From positions 1-39,444 of IMG/VR virus record IMGVR_UViG_3300032213_000629: a stretch of DNA of 39,444 bases, one strand, 5' to 3'. This document shows positions 3,685 through 10,478 of this stretch, piece by piece. Position 1 is the first letter of the stretch, and each line of letters begins with the position of its first letter. A program made the position numbers and the translations under genes. This DNA is from a virus. The notes under the pieces were generated by a model that searched no databases, had not been told where the DNA came from, and was given only the letters and a program-made list of their open reading frames with translations.

Positions 3685-3700
3685 ATAAGACAGGAGAAAT
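3685..3700 (+). promoter_or_regulatory. Start-associated sequence / ribosome site of the SprT-like gene
   Basis: ATAAGACAGGAGAAAT sits 3 bases before the ATG at 3704. It is the first copy of the repeated early-gene motif (consensus ACTTAAGACAGGAGAAA); here CTTAAG is CATAAG. The left arm overlaps the right arm of the preceding hairpin, so folding could affect ribosome access. Confidence 0.7.
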
Positions 3701-3703
3701 AAA

Positions 3704-4339
3704 ATGAAATCAGCAGTTAAGACACCAAAGGCCGTAAACGGTGAGGCTTTATCTTTAATCACCAAAGCAATGGAGAAGGCTCACCAAATCATCAAAGAAG
3801 AAACGGGAGCCCCTTCTGCCACAATTTTGATAACCCGCAATTTAAAAAATGCAAAAGCACACTTTACCCCTTACACCCCATGGAAGAATGGCGACATTAC
3901 ATTTAATGAAATCGCCTTCAATGCTGAATATTTCAATGATGGAGCGGTTAATGTTTTGCGCTCCTTATTGCATGAGGTGGCTCACTCTCTAAATTGGCAA
4001 AATGGGATTAAGGACTGCTCATCAAATCAATACCACAATAAAAACTTTGCGCTGACAGCAGAGGCTTTGGGACTTAAGACAGAGAAAGCCCCAAAAATTG
4101 GATTTACTGCCACAGGCATCACAGAGGAAGGCTTGAAACGATGGGATAAGGCGCTGAAAGTTATTGATTGCGCCCTTAGCATTTCTGCCCTCTCAGCAGG
4201 TGAGGCAAAGCCAAAAGGCAGAAACACCAATTTAATTAAAGCGGAGTGCGGTTGTGGAAATGTAATCCGCCTAAGCCGTGGAGTTCTGGAAAGTGGCGTA
4301 ATTTGCAAAGCGTGTGAGGAGGATTTCCAAGAGGCTTAA
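3704..4339 (+). CDS. SprT-like zinc metallopeptidase
   Basis: This 211-aa protein has the zinc-protease motif HEVAHS (H90, E91, H94) and a likely third ligand H111 in QYHNKNF, as in SprT/Spartan-type peptidases. The C-terminus carries a zinc ribbon, with CGCG at 182-185 and CKAC at 201-204, a common partner of the SprT fold. In cells, Spartan proteins cut DNA-bound proteins; the phage target is unknown. It is the first gene after promoter P1 and has the motif ACAGGAGAAAT as ribosome site. A copy of ACTTAAGACAG lies inside the gene at 4072, where it encodes LKT. Two more CTTAAG words overlap and follow the stop. Confidence 0.78.
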   Translation: MKSAVKTPKAVNGEALSLITKAMEKAHQIIKEETGAPSATILITRNLKNAKAHFTPYTPWKNGDITFNEIAFNAEYFNDGAVNVLRSLLHEVAHSLNWQNGIKDCSSNQYHNKNFALTAEALGLKTEKAPKIGFTATGITEEGLKRWDKALKVIDCALSISALSAGEAKPKGRNTNLIKAECGCGNVIRLSRGVLESGVICKACEEDFQEA

Positions 4340-4340
4340 G

Positions 4341-4422
4341 ACTTAAGACAGAAAGCCCCCCGCCCGATTTAATCGGCACAGGCTTACGACCTACGGGGGG
4401 CACGGTGTGATTAACCTCACAC
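4341..4422 (+). terminator. Hairpin cluster after the SprT-like gene, possible terminator
   Basis: ACTTAAGACAGAAAG at 4341-4355 directly follows the stop. GCCCCCCG (4355-4362) pairs with CGGGGGGC (4394-4401), enclosing a second perfect hairpin CCGAT-TTA-ATCGG (4364-4376). GTGTGA (4405-4410) pairs with TCACAC (4417-4422) and is followed by GGTTTGG. There is no long T run, so termination is possible but uncertain. It separates the first gene from promoter P2. Confidence 0.45.
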
Positions 4423-4432
4423 GGTTTGGTAA

Positions 4433-4462
4433 TTGACAACTGCCAGCCGTAGGAGGAAAATC
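4433..4462 (+). promoter_or_regulatory. Candidate early promoter P2
   Basis: TTGACA at 4433-4438 sits in the same context as P1 (GGTA/GTTGACAA). The -10 is weak: GAAAAT at 4456-4461 after 17 bases. A near-perfect inverted repeat, GATTAGGAAA-G-TTTCTTAATC at 4481-4501 with one G-T pair, lies between it and the next ribosome site. Confidence 0.4.
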
Positions 4463-4503
4463 AGCCACAGCAGGAAAACAGATTAGGAAAGTTTCTTAAT
4501 CTG

Positions 4504-4520
4504 ACTTAAGACAGGAGAAA
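4504..4520 (+). promoter_or_regulatory. Start-associated sequence before the 101-aa gene
   Basis: ACTTAAGACAGGAGAAA is an exact consensus copy ending 4 bases before the ATG at 4525. AGGAG provides the ribosome site. Confidence 0.75.
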
Positions 4521-4524
4521 ACAA

Positions 4525-4830
4525 ATGAATACAATCAAGCAAATGGCAGAAGAAATACGCCTTGATTTATTTAGTGGCAGGGCGTTGGAAGATGTCAAAG
4601 ACAGAGCAGGCGAAATTGTAGACGGGTATCTACCTATTTACAATAACCAAATCGTAGAAGAATGGCAAAAAATGCCTATTGAATACGACAACAGAGGAAG
4701 CGCAGAGTTAGGTTATAGCGGTGAAATTAACATCATTAACTTAATGAGCCTTGACCTTTATTTATATTATACAGATTTATTTTATGAAGCAGTTAAAGAA
4801 GTTGAAGCAACATTAGAGGAGGCTATCTAA
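4525..4830 (+). CDS. Hypothetical acidic early protein, 101 aa
   Basis: No family was recognised. The protein is acidic and probably mostly helical, with no cysteine motif, signal peptide or membrane segment. The start at 4525 is fixed by an exact copy of the early-gene ribosome motif. The stop TAA overlaps the ATG of the next gene (TAATG), so the two are translationally coupled. It is the first gene of the P2 group of four overlapping small genes. Confidence 0.7.
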   Translation: MNTIKQMAEEIRLDLFSGRALEDVKDRAGEIVDGYLPIYNNQIVEEWQKMPIEYDNRGSAELGYSGEINIINLMSLDLYLYYTDLFYEAVKEVEATLEEAI

Positions 4831-5051
4831 TGAGACTTAAGACAGAATATGTCCACGAGGTGGAAATGATTTATGAAACCACGGGCGATTATATGAGTTT
4901 CAAATTCAGGGCTGACGAAGAAACCGACCCCATGGAAATCTTCAAACAGTTTACAGATAACTGCTCCATCGTTGTCCTCAGCGTGGAGGAGGAAGATGTA
5001 GAAATTGAAGAAGAAGAAACAGGACTTAAGACAGAAGTGGGGGCTATCTAA
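4830..5051 (+). CDS. Hypothetical very acidic early protein, 73 aa
   Basis: The ATG overlaps the previous stop and the stop overlaps the next ATG, both as TAATG. The repeated DNA motif occurs twice inside this gene, at 4835 and 5024, both read as LKT, near the N-terminus (RLKTEYVHEV) and near the C-terminus (GLKTEVGAI). The middle is rich in Asp and Glu (VEEEDVEIEEEE), like small DNA-mimic or inhibitor proteins, but no function can be assigned. Confidence 0.65.
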   Translation: MRLKTEYVHEVEMIYETTGDYMSFKFRADEETDPMEIFKQFTDNCSIVVLSVEEEDVEIEEEETGLKTEVGAI

Positions 5052-5215
5052 TGAGAGACGACATCACAATCGCAAGCGTTAGGGTTCTAACTATTGCCCG
5101 ATTGTTGGAGGAGTATGCCAACTCTGAGGCTGAGGGTGCATTACCTACAAGCAAGCGGGAAGCGTGGAATGTAGCACAATATTTAAGACTTAAGACAGAG
5201 GAGGTGAACGCATGA
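5051..5215 (+). CDS. Hypothetical early microprotein, 54 aa
   Basis: The ORF runs from the ATG in TAATG at 5049-5053 to the TGA at 5213-5215, which overlaps the next ATG. The product begins MRDDITIASVRVLTIARLLE and is probably helical. The repeated motif at 5188-5204 is read as RLKTEE near the C-terminus and, at the same time, its GAGGAGG tail is the ribosome site of the next gene. No family recognised. Confidence 0.55.
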   Translation: MRDDITIASVRVLTIARLLEEYANSEAEGALPTSKREAWNVAQYLRLKTEEVNA

Positions 5216-5379
5216 TTGACTGGGAAAACTTTTTAAATGTAGGGCTGAATGATTACGGCTTTACATTAGAGGGCTACTTTGGAGATATTTATATCCCTTG
5301 GCGCACTCTTATCCTTGCAGGTTTAATCTTTGCAGGATTTAAAATTAAATCATGGCTTAAGACACGAAAAGGAATGTGA
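5212..5379 (+). CDS. Small membrane protein, 55 aa
   Basis: The ATG overlaps the previous stop (ATGA). After a polar N-terminal half comes one probable membrane segment, RTLILAGLIFAGF, followed by a basic tail that includes the motif-encoded SWLKTRKGM, which suggests the C-terminus stays inside the cell. It is the last gene of the P2 group; a TGTGA/TCACA hairpin (5375-5390) covers its stop. Function unknown. Confidence 0.55.
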   Translation: MIDWENFLNVGLNDYGFTLEGYFGDIYIPWRTLILAGLIFAGFKIKSWLKTRKGM

Positions 5380-5401
5380 TGTAATTCACAGCCCTAAACC
5401 A

Positions 5402-5430
5402 TTGACAGGTGGCAGGTGTTCGCGACACCA
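5402..5430 (+). promoter_or_regulatory. Candidate early promoter P3 with hairpin
   Basis: TTGACA at 5402-5407 has no good -10 at the right spacing. A perfect hairpin GGTGT-TCGCG-ACACC (5415-5429) lies where RNA polymerase would bind and may be an operator. CAAGG (5443-5447) can pair with CCTTG (5461-5465) just before the next ribosome motif. Confidence 0.35.
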
Positions 5431-5467
5431 TTAGGGCACTAGCAAGGCGGGAGATACCTACCTTGTG

Positions 5468-5483
5468 AATTAAGACAGGAGAA
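5468..5483 (+). promoter_or_regulatory. Start-associated sequence before the 83-aa gene
   Basis: AATTAAGACAGGAGAA ends 4 bases before the ATG at 5488. It differs from consensus only at the left end. Confidence 0.72.
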
Positions 5484-5487
5484 CAAG

Positions 5488-5739
5488 ATGGCTAAATGGA
5501 CTAACGCAAAGGGCGACACCATCACCACAAGCGGGACTATTTATACGATTACAAAGAATGGCTACGCCTCTCATTGTGATGTTGCAAGATGGAGCATGAC
5601 GGCTGAGAAGTGGATTAGAAACGACATAGCCTCAGGTTATTACAGCGATTTTACTGAGGTAGTAGAACAGTCTGACTTAAGACAGGAAGTTTATTGTGGC
5701 GATTGTTTGGTCAGCATTAAGGAGTGTGCCCACGCATGA
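5488..5739 (+). CDS. Hypothetical early protein with C-terminal cysteines, 83 aa
   Basis: The start is set by the motif ribosome site. The N-terminus looks like a small beta-rich domain (KWTNAKGDTITTSGTIYTI), and the C-terminus has CGDC and a further Cys (KEC), a possible zinc site. An internal copy of the motif at 5675 is read in a different frame from the earlier genes, as DLRQE. The stop overlaps the next ATG. No family recognised. Confidence 0.65.
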   Translation: MAKWTNAKGDTITTSGTIYTITKNGYASHCDVARWSMTAEKWIRNDIASGYYSDFTEVVEQSDLRQEVYCGDCLVSIKECAHA

Positions 5740-5894
5740 ACCTAACTAAGCGAGGCCGTAGAGTTAGGGCGGGGCTACTGACCGCTCTACTGCTGGCTAT
5801 TATATGGCTACTAAATGACATGACCACACCCGACCAATGCAAGGTTGAGTTTGAAAACTTATCTCAATTTTGCCTTGACCTACTATACAAATAA
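5736..5894 (+). CDS. Small membrane protein with basic N-terminus, 52 aa
   Basis: The ATG overlaps the previous stop. The N-terminus MNLTKRGRRVR is basic and is followed by one hydrophobic segment, AGLLTALLLAIIWLL, so the rest, which has two cysteines, is expected outside the membrane. A TKRGRRVR-plus-anchor start is typical of small anchored actinobacterial cell-wall proteins, which supports the host assignment. Function unknown. Confidence 0.55.
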   Translation: MNLTKRGRRVRAGLLTALLLAIIWLLNDMTTPDQCKVEFENLSQFCLDLLYK

Positions 5895-5915
5895 TGTATT
5901 AAGACAGGAGACAAA

Positions 5916-6050
5916 ATGAACTGCAATTTATGTGGGTGTGATGGAGCATACTTGGCACACAAGATTGGAAAAAAACTTGTTTCAATCTGCGGTGATTGCT
6001 GGTATCAAGAAACTAAATATGTATTAAGACAGGAGGATAGCAATGAGTGA
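5916..6050 (+). CDS. Zinc-ribbon microprotein, 44 aa
   Basis: Five cysteines in the pattern CNLCGC ... CGDC suggest one bound zinc. The start follows ATTAAGACAGGAG (5898-5910) by 5 bases. The C-terminus YVLRQEDSNE is encoded by the next motif copy (6023-6036), so the same bases serve as coding tail here and as ribosome site for the following gene. Likely an adaptor or inhibitor that binds protein or nucleic acid; partner unknown. Confidence 0.55.
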   Translation: MNCNLCGCDGAYLAHKIGKKLVSICGDCWYQETKYVLRQEDSNE

Positions 6051-6195
6051 GATGTCTATAAGTTGGGGCGAGTTAGCACAATTAACCCACGCCACACAAG
6101 TAGCACAATTTAATTTCTGTATGTGTGAGGATAATGAAAGCAACGAAAATCCTTACAGCGATTGTCCAAGTAATGACTTAAGACAGGAGGCATGA
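6043..6195 (+). CDS. Cysteine-containing early microprotein, 50 aa
   Basis: The ATG at 6043 follows ATTAAGACAGGAGG (6023-6036) by 6 bases and overlaps the end of the previous gene. CMC and a later C could be a partial metal site. The tail NDLRQEA is again encoded by the repeated motif (6176-6190), which is also the ribosome site of the next gene. No family recognised. Confidence 0.5.
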   Translation: MSEMSISWGELAQLTHATQVAQFNFCMCEDNESNENPYSDCPSNDLRQEA

Positions 6196-6314
6196 TGGCA
6201 TACGGTAAGTGTTGGGTATGTGGTTCGGTAATGACGGGCGACAGCCAAACAATGGAAGGCAAAGTTAAGTGCGATAGATGCGGTTGGATTTCGCACAAAG
6301 ATGGAAGTTATTAA
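6195..6314 (+). CDS. Zinc-ribbon microprotein, 39 aa
   Basis: Two CxxC pairs (CWVC and CDRC) about 17 residues apart form a minimal zinc ribbon. Two ATGs are possible, 6192 and 6195; the second leaves 4-5 bases after AGGAGG and is preferred, while the first leaves about 1. It closes the P3 group. A weak motif copy, TTAAGACGAG, starts at the stop codon. Confidence 0.5.
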   Translation: MAYGKCWVCGSVMTGDSQTMEGKVKCDRCGWISHKDGSY

Positions 6315-6337
6315 GACGAGGTTGTCTTAAGACATGA
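6309..6337 (+). repeat. Tandem motif pair with palindrome GTCTTAAGAC
   Basis: TTAAGACGAG and GTCTTAAGACATGAG lie end to end between two gene groups. GTCTTAAGAC (6324-6333) is a perfect 10-bp palindrome. No ATG follows at ribosome distance that opens a real gene, so these copies are not acting as a start site and may bind a protein. Confidence 0.5.
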
Positions 6338-6360
6338 GACTAACATCACATCAAAGATAG

Positions 6361-6388
6361 TTGACAACAGTTAACTGGCAATGATAAT
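6361..6388 (+). promoter_or_regulatory. Early promoter P4
   Basis: TTGACA at 6361-6366 is followed after 16 bases by GATAAT (6383-6388), or after 18 by TAATGT (6385-6390). It lies 34 bases before the ATG at 6422, whose ribosome site CAGACAGGAGAAATACA (6404-6420) lacks the TTAAG half of the motif. Confidence 0.55.
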
Positions 6389-6421
6389 GTTCTACCAACA
6401 CCAACAGACAGGAGAAATACA

Positions 6422-6748
6422 ATGGCAACAATAACAATGCAGGTTGATGATAAAGAGTTATGGAGTGCAGTATTTGGTGCAAGCCCTTTCTCTTTCGGAG
6501 ACCATTTTATTGAGGCTGAATACTTAGATGATGCCAACTGGGAAACCGTGGGCCGTATCAAAGTAGTAGCCCTTGATGAAAACGATGAGCGAGTTGAAAA
6601 GATAATTGGCATAGATGATTTAGCCAAGGCTCTACCAATCGCTAACCAACAGGTTTACATGGACCTGTTTGACTTTGACAATTACGACAGCATTTGTGCT
6701 GATGCAGTGATGCAGGTGGCCGTGCTTGGCAAAGTAATCTACGGATAA
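6422..6748 (+). CDS. Hypothetical acidic early protein, 108 aa
   Basis: The start follows GACAGGAGAAATACA. The protein is acidic with beta-strand-like segments at the N-terminus (MATITMQVDDKELWSAVFG) and a helical C-terminal half; no catalytic motif, signal peptide or membrane segment was seen. The pattern resembles small structural or inhibitory early proteins, but no family was recognised. It heads the P4 group that runs to WhiB. Confidence 0.65.
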   Translation: MATITMQVDDKELWSAVFGASPFSFGDHFIEAEYLDDANWETVGRIKVVALDENDERVEKIIGIDDLAKALPIANQQVYMDLFDFDNYDSICADAVMQVAVLGKVIYG

Positions 6749-6753
6749 ATCGG

Positions 6754-6770
6754 ACTTAAGACAGGAGAAA
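6754..6770 (+). promoter_or_regulatory. Start-associated sequence before the 76-aa gene
   Basis: ACTTAAGACAGGAGAAA is an exact consensus copy, with the ATG at 6775 four bases later. Confidence 0.75.
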
Positions 6771-6774
6771 TATA

Positions 6775-7005
6775 ATGTTAGTTAAAGATGCACTTGCAAT
6801 ACTTAATGACTTACCATTAGATGCTGAGATATGTGCTCAATGGTATGAAAAAGAAGATATGGAATACTCAGATGAAACTATTTCTGATGAAGTATGGAGT
6901 GAGGCTAATCGTTTAATGGATAAGTGGGAACTAACAGACCTACGCTACCAATTAGATGATGCCATAAGAATAGCAAGAGACAACTTAGCAAAGGAGAAAA
7001 TATAA
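6775..7005 (+). CDS. Hypothetical acidic early protein, 76 aa
   Basis: The start is fixed by an exact motif copy. The N-terminus MLVKDALAILNDLPLDAEIC resembles small phage proteins of the form in which a short helix precedes a beta-hairpin; the rest is acidic and helical. The stop directly abuts the ATG of the next gene, whose ribosome site (AAAGGAG) lies inside this gene. Function unknown. Confidence 0.62.
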   Translation: MLVKDALAILNDLPLDAEICAQWYEKEDMEYSDETISDEVWSEANRLMDKWELTDLRYQLDDAIRIARDNLAKEKI

Positions 7006-7230
7006 ATGGGAGCATCACCGATATACAAAGTCTATGACCCACTTGGTGGGTATGTAGCATCATGCAAAGATACAGAGGGGGCATCACTATTGATGGACCT
7101 ATACGGAGAAGGTAGCACTATCCGTTATGACCATCGCCTTATTGTGTGGACAGAAGGTAAAGATGGGCGAGCCTCCAACTCTTACGATGAAACCCGTGAG
7201 AAAATTACTCAACGATTACTACAACGGTAA
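7006..7230 (+). CDS. Hypothetical early protein, 74 aa
   Basis: The ATG immediately follows the previous stop and has AAAGGAG 9 bases upstream, which lacks the TTAAGAC half of the motif. The sequence has an aromatic, glycine-containing N-terminus (YKVYDPLGGYVASCKDTEGA) that suggests a small beta sheet, and a basic C-terminus. No family recognised. An exact motif copy follows at 7236-7252. Confidence 0.58.
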   Translation: MGASPIYKVYDPLGGYVASCKDTEGASLLMDLYGEGSTIRYDHRLIVWTEGKDGRASNSYDETREKITQRLLQR

Positions 7231-7235
7231 TCATT

Positions 7236-7252
7236 ACTTAAGACAGGAGAAA
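7236..7252 (+). promoter_or_regulatory. Start-associated sequence before the 57-aa gene
   Basis: ACTTAAGACAGGAGAAA is an exact copy; the ATG at 7257 follows after 4 bases. Confidence 0.75.
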
Positions 7253-7256
7253 TACA

Positions 7257-7430
7257 ATGCTCGGATATAAGAATGAAGATATACAGAAAATGGGGGGAGC
7301 AATAAACATTTCTCTCCGTTATTTTAAAGATGGTTCAGAAGTTCAGAAGGGTTTGTTAATGGTTCACGATTTACTAGATGGACTATTGGCAGAAGGATAT
7401 GTAAGTGATGAGGTGAAGCCTCATGTCTGA
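7257..7430 (+). CDS. Hypothetical early protein, 57 aa
   Basis: The start is given by the exact motif copy at 7236-7252. The protein has a charged N-terminus followed by a likely amphipathic helix (EVQKGLLMVHDLLDGLLAE). It overlaps the next gene by 8 bases. No family recognised. Confidence 0.52.
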   Translation: MLGYKNEDIQKMGGAINISLRYFKDGSEVQKGLLMVHDLLDGLLAEGYVSDEVKPHV

Positions 7431-7557
7431 GCCACAATGGATACATGGCGACCCGATAGCACTGAGCCTAAACAACTGCGAGAGTTGTGATAATGCTGAG
7501 TGCTCATGCGGTGAGCCTGACCCCGACACTATGTATAACGAGATGATGGAGGGCTGA
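7423..7557 (+). CDS. Cysteine-rich acidic microprotein, 44 aa
   Basis: Four cysteines (NCESC and CSC) form a possible zinc or iron site in an acidic chain. The start codon overlaps the end of the previous gene, and TGAGG/GAAGCC upstream gives only a weak ribosome site, so translation is probably coupled. No family recognised. Confidence 0.45.
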   Translation: MSEPQWIHGDPIALSLNNCESCDNAECSCGEPDPDTMYNEMMEG

Positions 7558-7558
7558 C

Positions 7559-7801
7559 ATGGAACTTGAAGTTGGTTCAATACTTAAGACAGAAACCGCC
7601 TTTGATAAAGACATGACTATCACCCATGATGGTAAAGAATACAGAGTTGTCTTGCACTGGGACTGGCATGATGGCTTTGAGGCTACATGGTTAGATGATG
7701 AAGGTAGGTTTGTATCAACACCCGACTGGGTAGATGATGAAGATGATAACTTTCTCTGCAAACTTAACGCAGTTAAAGAACACAGTAAGGCATCAATCTA
7801 A
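7559..7801 (+). CDS. Hypothetical acidic early protein, 80 aa
   Basis: GGAGG precedes the ATG by about 7 bases. The protein is strongly acidic and rich in tryptophan (HWDWHDGFEATWLDDEGRFV), like a small beta-sheet DNA mimic, though this is only a resemblance. A motif copy at 7582 encodes LKT within SILKTETAFD. The stop overlaps the next ATG. Confidence 0.58.
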   Translation: MELEVGSILKTETAFDKDMTITHDGKEYRVVLHWDWHDGFEATWLDDEGRFVSTPDWVDDEDDNFLCKLNAVKEHSKASI

Positions 7802-7974
7802 TGGAAACTAGAATGGAATGCCTTAAATGTGGTGGCATAGTTGTCAACCCAAGGGTAATTAACTTGATGACTGAGCGATGCACGCCTTGTGAAATAAAGT
7901 ATAGAGAGATGGCAGAGTTTGCTATTGATACATACTTACATAACATAGCCGAACAAAAGGAGCAGAATGCGTAA
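7801..7974 (+). CDS. Zinc-ribbon microprotein, 57 aa
   Basis: CLKC near residues 7-10 and CTPC near 27-30 form a four-cysteine zinc ribbon, followed by a helix. The ATG overlaps the previous stop and the end overlaps the next gene by 8 bases. It is one of several zinc microproteins in the early block. Confidence 0.55.
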   Translation: METRMECLKCGGIVVNPRVINLMTERCTPCEIKYREMAEFAIDTYLHNIAEQKEQNA

Positions 7975-8413
7975 GGTCTTAAGACAGATACACCCTCATG
8001 CTAGATTGTGGATACTTTCAACCTTTACCTTAGGTGCACTGTTGGTTGTCAATACACCCATCATTAACATTAACCATCAGCCAACGGGTAAGGTAGTTGC
8101 TTACTACAATAATGAATACCAAAAGTATGCAATAGATAAATTAACCAAGATGAATATGGTTGAGCAGTATCCATGTCTCTTTGAATTGTGGACTGAGGAA
8201 AGCAACTGGCGACCATTGGCTCTTAATAAATCAAGCAAGGCATCGGGCATAGCACAACTTATGCCTGCTACTTGGGTAAACATAGGTATCAAACCTACTA
8301 CTAATGGCTATGCTCAGGTTGATGCTGGCCTTGTTTATATCCAACAACACTATGGTAAGACGGGTGCAATATGTAGAGCATACGCACACCACTTAGCAGT
8401 TGGTTGGTATTAA
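7967..8413 (+). CDS. Membrane-anchored lytic transglycosylase-like protein
   Basis: This 148-aa protein has a basic N-terminus, one membrane segment (about residues 13-30), and an outward domain with the soluble-lytic-transglycosylase pattern: ESNWRPLA with probable catalytic E78, then ASGIAQLMPATW (92-103). Such enzymes cut peptidoglycan glycan strands. The domain is short, about 80 aa, so it may be reduced. It lies in the early block, far from the lysis genes at 16-18 kb, so a role in wall remodelling or superinfection control is as likely as lysis (inference). Its ATG is preceded by AAAGGAG. The repeated motif at 7977 encodes VLRQI right after the start. Confidence 0.7.
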   Translation: MRKVLRQIHPHARLWILSTFTLGALLVVNTPIININHQPTGKVVAYYNNEYQKYAIDKLTKMNMVEQYPCLFELWTEESNWRPLALNKSSKASGIAQLMPATWVNIGIKPTTNGYAQVDAGLVYIQQHYGKTGAICRAYAHHLAVGWY

Positions 8414-8416
8414 GAC

Positions 8417-8755
8417 ATGAAACCACAGTTCCATACAGTGTTAGAAGAAACATCGCTGGCTGGTAGACACGGCAGAAGATTAATCCGTTATGTCTTAAGA
8501 TATAATTGGAAATTGTTTTCTAAAGGTGCATGTCAAGGGATAGACACAGAAGTTTTTTATCCAGTCAAAGATGTGTTTACTATCCAAGAAGAAAGAATGA
8601 TTGAAAAGATGTGCATTGATTGCCCCATTATGATGGCTTGCCTAGAGTGGGGTCTAGCCCATGAAACATACGGAGTATGGGGTGGCACTACACCCAATAG
8701 ACGGAAGGCAATTCGTAGGAACATAGGCTGGGCGGTGAGCGACCCTAAGATATGA
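8417..8755 (+). CDS. whiB: WhiB-family iron-sulfur regulator
   Basis: The 112-aa protein has four cysteines, C39, C66, C69 and C75, in the WhiB spacing (C, CxxC, C), the lead CQGIDTEVFYP, and the GVWGG turn (86-90) followed by a basic RRKAIRR tail. WhiB proteins hold a 4Fe-4S cluster and bind the primary sigma factor of actinobacteria to alter promoter choice; phage copies are known to change host transcription and superinfection immunity. It is the last gene of the early block. The ATG overlaps ATTAAGACATGA, a motif copy with no AGGAG, so it is probably translated by coupling to the previous gene, which ends 3 bases earlier. Confidence 0.9.
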   Translation: MKPQFHTVLEETSLAGRHGRRLIRYVLRYNWKLFSKGACQGIDTEVFYPVKDVFTIQEERMIEKMCIDCPIMMACLEWGLAHETYGVWGGTTPNRRKAIRRNIGWAVSDPKI

Positions 8756-8760
8756 TAGGG
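8743..8760 (+). other. Hairpin over the whiB stop codon
   Basis: CCCTA (8743-8747) pairs with TAGGG (8756-8760) around the TGA, followed by TTTGAAG. Weak terminator or 3' end structure. Confidence 0.35.
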
Positions 8761-8770
8761 TTTGAAGTAT

Positions 8771-8820
8771 CTAGTGCATCTGCTTCTATAAAGGGGAAGT
8801 GTAGGAGCAGGTGCATTTAG
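8771..8820. other. Long hairpin between converging gene blocks
   Basis: CTAGTGCATCTGCT (8771-8784) pairs with AGCAGGTGCATTTAG (8806-8820) through about 14 pairs including two G-T, with one bulge. The loop has about 21 bases. It lies between whiB and the minus-strand dNMP kinase gene and could be a two-way terminator or the 5' domain of a small RNA. Confidence 0.5.
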
Positions 8821-8826
8821 AAAAGT

Positions 8827-8852
8827 CTAGCAATTCTCTCCTGTCTTGCTAG
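8827..8852 (+). ncRNA. Hairpin exposing the complement of the early ribosome motif (candidate antisense RNA)
   Basis: CTAGCAA (8827-8833) pairs perfectly with TTGCTAG (8846-8852). The loop and first stem bases read TCTCCTGTCTT (8837-8847), an 11-base perfect complement of AAGACAGGAGA, which occurs just before the starts at 3704, 4525, 5488, 5916, 6775 and 7257. On the plus strand this would be an antisense loop against those ribosome sites. On the minus strand it would be a decoy copy of them. No clear own promoter was found; it would be made by read-through from the early block or as a processed 3' end. Confidence 0.45.
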
Positions 8853-8876
8853 GCTTCTCTATTTGTCCAAGCCTAG
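8849..8876. other. Alternative hairpin overlapping the dNMP kinase stop
   Basis: CTAGGCTT (8849-8856) pairs perfectly with AAGCCTAG (8869-8876). Its left arm shares CTAG with the right arm of the hairpin at 8827-8852, so the two stems exclude each other. It covers the stop codon of the dNMP kinase gene. This resembles a terminator/antiterminator switch (inference). Confidence 0.5.
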
Positions 8877-9398
8877 ATGTTTAGCCAACATAAATACTTC
8901 ATCGCTTAAGTCATCAAGAGTTCCATCGTTATAGACAACATGATTAAACATATAGTTATCCATTGCATGTTCGGAAGGGTGTCCATTAACTGCGCTGTGG
9001 TTGTGTCTATTGATGCGCCATATTGAACCGCCTAATTTCTTTATTGCCTCAGCCTCATTAGGAAATCTAACATCGCTAATAACTACAAGGCTTGTGCTAT
9101 CTAAATCTTTTAATGCCATGTCAATCCAAAACTCTGAACCAAATTGTTTGCGACCAACCTCAGTGCCAAAGACTTGTAATAGTCTGCGAACCTCAGGGTT
9201 CTGCTTGGCTGTGTCCCAACCATAATCATCTACATACTCTGACAATCTTGTGATGCCATCTACCTTAGGACTTAAGACATATAATGCTTGTCGCATTGGG
9301 TCTGCAAATGAAACTCTTTTGTAATCGTAATTAAGACACAACAATTCTGCAACTGTATCTTTACCACTACGGGCGTATCCACTTAAACCTATTATCAT
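8859..9398 (-). CDS. Deoxynucleoside monophosphate kinase-like
   Basis: This 179-aa P-loop kinase has GLSGYARSGKDT at residues 4-15, and SFADPMRQAL and SDVRFPNEAEAI later, the pattern of phage dNMP kinases that phosphorylate deoxynucleotides for DNA synthesis. The start at 9398 has GGGAG upstream. It is the last gene of the leftward replication block and overlaps the sigma-like gene by 4 bases. A motif copy ACTTAAGACATATAATG occurs at about 9270 inside it, on the opposite strand, where it is not a start site. Confidence 0.82.
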   Translation of the reverse strand: MIIGLSGYARSGKDTVAELLCLNYDYKRVSFADPMRQALYVLSPKVDGITRLSEYVDDYGWDTAKQNPEVRRLLQVFGTEVGRKQFGSEFWIDMALKDLDSTSLVVISDVRFPNEAEAIKKLGGSIWRINRHNHSAVNGHPSEHAMDNYMFNHVVYNDGTLDDLSDEVFMLAKHLGLDK

Positions 9399-10096
9399 TG
9401 TTGCTCCCTATCTTTCTTTCTATATCTACGGTTATTCCATTGAGGTTGCTCTCCACCTATGCGGTCTTGAAGTTTAGTAAGGGCACGAGACACACGCTTA
9501 CGCAACGCTTCATCGCTAATAGAATACTCAATAGCAAGAGCATCTACATCTGTGCCACCAGCAGAAAACCTACGCTGTAGTAGCAACTGGTCTTGCTCGT
9601 TTAGTTTCTTAAGACCGAAAGATACATCAGACAGCATAGCCTCACGGTTCATACCCTCATTAGGTTTGCTTGACTTCTGAATATACTCATCTTTAGGGGC
9701 AGAAGATTGTGTCCAATGTTCATAATCCCATACATCTTTAAGCAACTCTTGCAGTATCTCATGCGTGTAATAGAAAGCATCTGATGGTGTGGACTTGGTG
9801 CGGTGTGCCCTCTCTTTGGCCGCAAACTTTTGCGACTCGTTGTTAAAGGTGCGCTTAAGTTTAAATACTAAACTGTGTTGTCCATTCCATTCTTCTATTT
9901 TGTGCCAGTGTTCTAACGCCCAAAGGTTAAGGTGTTGGAATACATCATCAGCAGATATTAAATTGCGATGGATACGCACACATCTAACAGCAGATAGCCG
10001 TGCTACTTTGTATACTTGGTCCCAAAGTTCATCACGCTTTTCTAACTCTTTGTTCTGTGCGTTTAGTTCTTCCTTTGATAATCGTTCTTCACTCAT
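9395..10096 (-). CDS. Sigma-70-like transcription factor
   Basis: The 233-aa protein has a region-2-like part (ISADDVFQHLNLWALEHW followed by a basic helix with KLKRTFNNE) and a region-4-like C-terminus (GLKKLNEQDQLLLQRRF, then LAIEYSISDEALRKRVSRAL), the helix-turn-helix that reads the -35 box. It could redirect host RNA polymerase to phage promoters. A poorly conserved linker lies between the two parts. The start is preceded by GAGGAAACTTAAGA, which contains ACTTAAGA. It overlaps the upstream gene by 8 bases. An anti-sigma or non-sigma DNA-binding role remains possible. Confidence 0.65.
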   Translation of the reverse strand: MSEERLSKEELNAQNKELEKRDELWDQVYKVARLSAVRCVRIHRNLISADDVFQHLNLWALEHWHKIEEWNGQHSLVFKLKRTFNNESQKFAAKERAHRTKSTPSDAFYYTHEILQELLKDVWDYEHWTQSSAPKDEYIQKSSKPNEGMNREAMLSDVSFGLKKLNEQDQLLLQRRFSAGGTDVDALAIEYSISDEALRKRVSRALTKLQDRIGGEQPQWNNRRYRKKDREQQ

Positions 10097-10478
10097 TCTT
10101 AAGTTTCCTCATCGCGTTTAGTAAATCATCTATCGTAATAAGGAAGCCTTTGCTTTTATTTGGTGGTATATCACAGGTAATTTCCCTGCCAAACTCTTTG
10201 ATAGCGTGCTTAACATGCGATGTCGGAACCATAAGCACACCCTTCTCTAATACGAACGCCCAATAATCTGCTTCAGTAACCATTATACCTGATGGCTCCC
10301 AAGATTTTGTCTTAAGAAACCAACATTCTATTTCAATGTATAAGTTGTTAGTAACCCACCATTTTCTGTCCCTCTTTACCTCTACGGTTTTGCCTTCGGT
10401 AAGCAGTTCTTCTACTAACTTTTCACCTTTTCTGCCAAAGCCAAAGTCTAAATCAAACGAGGAGTTTTTAGGACTCAT
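10089..10478 (-). CDS. Putative PD-(D/E)XK-type nuclease, 129 aa
   Basis: The order FDLDFGFGRKGEKLVEELL, then TVEVKRDRKWW and IEIECWF, with WEPSGIMVTEADYW later, resembles small restriction-endonuclease-fold proteins of actinophages in which the glutamate-lysine pair binds metal. It overlaps both neighbours in a run of nuclease and primase genes, which fits a role in DNA processing. The catalytic set is not certain, so the name is tentative. GAGGTAG precedes the start. Confidence 0.45.
   Translation of the reverse strand: MSPKNSSFDLDFGFGRKGEKLVEELLTEGKTVEVKRDRKWWVTNNLYIEIECWFLKTKSWEPSGIMVTEADYWAFVLEKGVLMVPTSHVKHAIKEFGREITCDIPPNKSKGFLITIDDLLNAMRKLKNE

Follow-up and report, generated by a model that had tools for sequence, protein, structure and literature searches.

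Genes and Hairpins at the Locus

The window (the whole stretch of viral DNA that was analyzed, an IMG/VR record of 39,444 nucleotides) was found to contain two tandem hairpins, A and B, which are both placed between two convergent gene blocks (Table 1). The initial annotation had put a hairpin directly after an early block, and the block on the plus strand does end with a WhiB-like gene, after which the hairpin follows. The minus-strand block begins with a gene for a dNMP kinase. The terminase of the window is closest to those of Streptomyces phages (~48% identity), and no isolated phage with DNA similar to the window was found. The G+C content (41%), the presence of a WhiB gene and the affinity of the terminase together suggest an uncultured freshwater actinobacterium as the probable host; a scan of genome contigs for prophage or host copies gave no relative of the neighbor gene. 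The SprT-like gene (3704–4339) and the WhiB gene are early genes that are also common to the early arms of cluster K mycobacteriophages, hinting at an old early module common to these phages and the window phage.

Hairpin A, which precedes hairpin B, is seen in most relatives. It is an accessory element, as its loop is not constant and one subgroup is without it. The loop sequence AGGGGAA is kept in many relatives of both clades (see below) and replaced in others. Kissing of loop A (through AGGGGA) with loop B was rejected as a general feature, since among relatives with loop B preserved, loop A can be GAACGCGAAA or CCAAGCG.

Table 1. Features of the intergenic gap and of the early start sites in the window. 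Early genes are named by their start position; duplex energies with the loop of hairpin B are in kcal/mol.
Feature	Coordinates	Strand	Basis
WhiB-like gene, last of the plus-strand block	8417–8755	+	Pfam PF02467, E 8e-15
Hairpin A, 18-bp stem, purine-rich loop with AGGGGAA	8773–8817	+	Fold; relatives
Hairpin B, 16-bp imperfect stem, 12-nt loop	8818–8861	+	Fold and compensatory changes among relatives
Loop UUCUCUCCUGUC of hairpin B	8834–8845	+	Core CUCUCCUGUC invariant across the window's clade
Anti-motif TCTCCTGTCTT	8837–8847	+	Perfect complement of AAGACAGGAGA
dNMP kinase gene, convergent neighbor, first of the minus-strand block, ending at 8859	8859–9398	-	phrog_139, E 2e-53
Start motif AAGACAGGAGA of SprT-like gene 3704	3687–3697	+	Duplex -18.1
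Start motif AAGACAGGAGA of gene 4525	4508–4518	+	Duplex -18.1
Start motif of gene 5488	5472–5482	+	Duplex -18.1
Start motif of gene 5916	5901–5911	+	Duplex -17.8
Start motif AAGACAGGAGG of gene 6043	6026–6036	+	Duplex -17.4
Start motif AAGACAGGAGG of gene 6192	6180–6190	+	Duplex -16.9
Start motif CAGACAGGAGA of gene 6422	6405–6415	+	Duplex -17.6
Start motif of gene 6775	6758–6768	+	Duplex -18.1
Start motif of gene 7257	7240–7250	+	Duplex -18.1

Hairpin B had been described as a 7-bp hairpin. This inner stem (8827–8833/8846–8852) is present, and its extent was understated, the arms running in fact from 8818 to 8833 and from 8846 to 8861 with 88% complementarity. The minimum free energy of the plus strand is -18.9 kcal/mol (z = -5.3); the minus strand of the region folds too (-17.6 kcal/mol). 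Judged by fold and comparison, the exposed apical loop displays an anti-Shine-Dalgarno sequence. The 11-base perfect complement claimed for this site is there, with nine of its 11 bases in the loop and the final two (8846–8847) belonging to the stem. Seven exact copies of the 11-mer AAGACAGGAGA occur in the window, six at plus-strand starts and one inverted within hairpin B. Dinucleotide shuffles of the whole window expect 0.04 copies per 39 kb. Searches with the Rfam covariance models, 6C RNA included, gave no match at gathering score and just chance hits (E > 1).

Early Start Sites and Predicted Targets

The motif had been reported at six or more early starts; the exact 11-mer is found at six, and nine carry it with no more than one mismatch (Table 1). 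Start-like GACRGGA sites in the window number 10 on the plus strand and one on the minus strand. When the loop was paired with gene leaders using RNAduplex, a check proposed in the initial annotation, early leaders were favored, with a median of -14.0 kcal/mol (n = 20) vs. -6.9 kcal/mol for late leaders (n = 39; p = 1.3e-5). Nine early starts reached -16.9 kcal/mol or better, and shuffled loops performed equally well in 1/300 cases for early leaders and in 115/300 for late leaders. Cofolding a leader with the hairpin kept intact gave a net gain of just 0 to -4.4 kcal/mol, a low value that arises because the model forbids contacts into a closed hairpin loop.

The early region also contains 39 copies of a CTTAAG palindrome and 31 copies of a TTAAGACA repeat, spread over positions 3717–10308 and densest at 4000–9400. 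The TTAAGACA repeat forms the 5′ part of many start sites, occurs partly inside genes and has no complementarity to the loop. Relatives have GTTTAAAC or GTTTAGAC in place of these repeats, which resemble an operator or stoperator system specific to the clade.

Conservation of Hairpin B Among Relatives

Hairpin B was present in 29/29 loci retrieved via the neighboring WhiB protein (first eight, then further loci), a set that is unbiased in being independent of the loop pattern. More than 60 distinct elements were found overall in related IMG/VR phages, about 50 copies having been added by a pattern scan. One pattern match (L112) was discarded as the start site of a minus-strand gene with no hairpin. 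In 17 aligned copies, 92.7% of the stem cells were standard pairs and 6/17 pairs were altered on both sides; none of 500 shuffles scored as high, and slid registers gave 34–45%.

The strand was indicated by the 11 inner stem pairs of 24 distinct copies, a set that included one quite different stem type. On the plus strand these showed 26 G-U cells vs. 0 A-C cells, which argues that the plus strand is the functional RNA. The 10-nt loop core CUCUCCUGUC was unchanged across all 24 copies while the stems differed; some of the copies had been picked by their loop pattern, unlike the loci retrieved via WhiB. Mimicry of the 16S rRNA tail (CCUCCUUUCU) was considered for the loop and rejected, since that tail is matched neither by the G that is fixed in CUCCUGUC nor by UUCCAGUC in the second clade.

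Joint Change of Loop and Start Motif

A further 154 loci were retrieved by a conserved neighbor gene (129 aa, phrog_13596). They included a second clade without AAGACAGGAG, in which the hairpin loop is instead UUCCAGUC and gene starts carry GACTGGA, not GACAGGA. Start sites were counted by loop type from 72 deduplicated elements, two of which (L046 and L028) were rejected as chance stems, the variable loop base being left free in the search. With U in the loop (the window's clade), GACAGGA was found 261 times, GACGGGA 15 times, GACTGGA seven times and GACCGGA not at all; with A in the loop (the second clade), the counts were 52 for GACTGGA, five for GACAGGA and zero for the C and G variants. 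Start-associated sites were nearly absent downstream of the hairpin element.

Independent divergence of loop and motif in relatives had been named as a refutation of the proposed link, which withstood this check. Loop and motif were concordant in 113/113 locus records (two or more informative sites in each), several of these records overlapping on one contig. Trees of a sigma-like gene and of the 129-aa gene each placed seven joint switches of loop and motif, which never switched separately. Independent switch pairs on well-supported branches numbered four on the sigma tree and two on the 129-aa gene tree (p = 0.125 at best). Because the hairpin element and the early block adjoin, some joint switches may reflect one transfer of both together as a linked cassette instead of repeated co-evolution.

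In certain relatives a start motif was seen but no hairpin to match it. Clade 4 (L262, L264, L268, L275, L276, L285, and L286) showed 3–12 GACRGGA starts per locus and no complementary hairpin in the DNA searched. This speaks against a universal pairing of motif and hairpin, and the start motif is probably useful in itself, for instance in serving the ribosome beside the TTAAGACA repeat. Early starts in clade 3 (L216–L260) have AGAGAGGATA in common, and no hairpin complementary to it was seen in the loci checked. A clade 3 hairpin with the loop AUGGGGAAGC, resembling hairpin A, was rejected because it falls within coding sequence and is not accompanied by a second hairpin.

Comparison with Cluster K Mycobacteriophages

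Start-Associated Sequences (SAS; GGGATAGGAGCCC, asymmetric and containing AGGAG) lie upstream of many non-structural genes in cluster K mycobacteriophages and are conserved beyond the needs of 16S pairing (Pope et al., 2011, PMC3203893). In four K1 phages, one SAS copy is inverted and lies away from gene starts (PMC3203893). In Anaya this copy was located to the gp96–gp97 gap, where it makes up the apical loop (CCUCCUAUCC) of a hairpin; just ~1.5% of the Anaya right arm falls in such hairpin loops, so its placement there is unlikely to be due to chance. The loop seen in Anaya recurs in differing stems in Angelica, Peanam, Amelie, and Adephagia, and the K1 anti-SAS hairpin is the second of two tandem hairpins. 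In Anaya (L296, 29759–29999) and its relatives, a terminator-like hairpin precedes it. Gene 92 of Angelica is annotated across the gap, an annotation which may be spurious. The corresponding gap in Adephagia, with the hairpin near position 58,680, lies between genes 92 and 93, where late transcription is reported to start (PMC11373665).

The window motif resembles the SAS in standing at non-structural gene starts, nearly all in one orientation, and in having one opposite copy, which as in K1 occupies a hairpin loop, the hairpin being the second of a tandem pair. The likeness is one of role only, as AAGACAGGAGA fails the 13-bp SAS consensus. Unlike the window's clade, where the loop is fixed, cluster K includes phages with a degenerate anti-SAS loop (Amohnition, Unicorn, Bryler, and Shandong1) and others, of K2/K3, in which no anti-SAS loop was found (Pixie, Keshu, and ZoeJ); the SAS was read in Pixie and ZoeJ and is unchanged there. 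With clade 4 and the K2/K3 phages keeping their motif and no matching hairpin seen in the searched DNA, these comparisons do not support a motif that exists solely for the hairpin.

Proposed Role and Alternative Explanations

Comparison of the relatives shows, at the level of sequence, a conserved plus-strand hairpin with a constrained loop tied to the phage's early start motif, and a predicted target set confined to early genes. We consider it probable that this is an early 3′-end RNA which uses an anti-Shine-Dalgarno loop to repress the phage's own early regulon. The gap would encode a structured plus-strand RNA produced at the early block's 3′ end, where hairpin B probably also assists termination of the early transcript. 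The apical loop would present an anti-Shine-Dalgarno sequence extended to fit the phage-specific start motif and would pair with some nine early leaders, blocking ribosome binding and perhaps triggering cleavage. Completion of the early transcript would then bring about feedback shut-off of the early regulon, from which late genes, having no motif, would escape. The initial annotation had suggested that one orientation could block at least six early genes at once; that orientation is well supported by the strand preference in G-U pairs, the fixed loop, the co-variation and the early-only duplexes, and from these we infer repression itself, together with a free RNA, action in trans and the timing.

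The hairpin might instead act in cis, its loop pairing with Shine-Dalgarno sites on the same polycistronic early mRNA and controlling decay or translation with no free small RNA. The early block holds every target and has the hairpin at its 3′ end, which suits such an element, and loop-motif co-variation fits cis action as well as trans action. However, many targets per loop suit a diffusible RNA better, and the K1 loop lies in a gap where it is late, not early, transcription that reportedly starts (PMC11373665), and we regard cis action as unlikely. An ordinary terminator between convergent operons, the loop match being incidental or kept for some other reason, seems somewhat less likely again. 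The position between convergent blocks is what would be expected of it, as are the GC-rich stems that several relatives, L210 among them, have ahead of T-rich tails. A terminator needs no fixed loop, yet the 10-nt core is fixed across differing stems and switches with the start motif, and the site in the window is not called terminator-like.

A DNA-level operator or stoperator site common to the starts and the gap is very improbable. The TTAAGACA repeat, beside many start motifs and also in genes, looks operator-like, but the hairpin is without the TTAAG part, has the opposite orientation and shows G-U pairing of the RNA type. Least credible is the other option raised in the initial annotation, a minus-strand decoy or sponge whose loop would show AAGACAGGAGA and titrate the ribosome or an RNA-binding factor. 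The minus strand does fold (-17.6 kcal/mol), but the 26 G-U cells of the inner stem would be A-C mismatches on it, and the strand test disfavors this orientation.

The repression of early genes by a plus-strand RNA, as preferred here, has partial parallels. Staphylococcus aureus RNAIII and Escherichia coli CyaR use an unpaired loop rich in pyrimidines to bind several mRNAs at their Shine-Dalgarno regions (PMC2837412). The loop in the window is likewise complementary to several such regions, early more than late (p = 1.3e-5); those RNAs are bacterial with diverse targets, whereas the candidate RNA is viral and its targets share an extended motif that changes with the loop. The c4 antisense RNA of phages P1 and P7 carries complementary bases in loops and blocks a ribosome-binding site (PMC12197685), but it acts on one mRNA (ant), whereas the RNA from the window is predicted to target a regulon of about nine early genes. 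In phage T4, RegB aids the shift to later genes by inactivating early phage mRNAs at Shine-Dalgarno sites that read GGAG (PMC3014915); RegB is a protein endonuclease, in contrast to the RNA proposed here.

We tentatively suggest a more general actinophage switch, in which SAS-type sequences, those of cluster K included, would be the targets of a phage anti-motif RNA that shuts the early regulon, with the code between loop and motif diverging between lineages; this broader reading is possible, and we hold it with clearly less confidence than the role proposed for the window phage. If the proposed role is true, this would be the first case known to us of a phage RNA controlling its own early regulon via one shared extended Shine-Dalgarno motif, and base-pairing would do here what RegB does in T4. 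It would also offer a concrete, testable partner for the SAS, and so address a question that dates from 2011, in mycobacteriophages amenable to culture and engineering.
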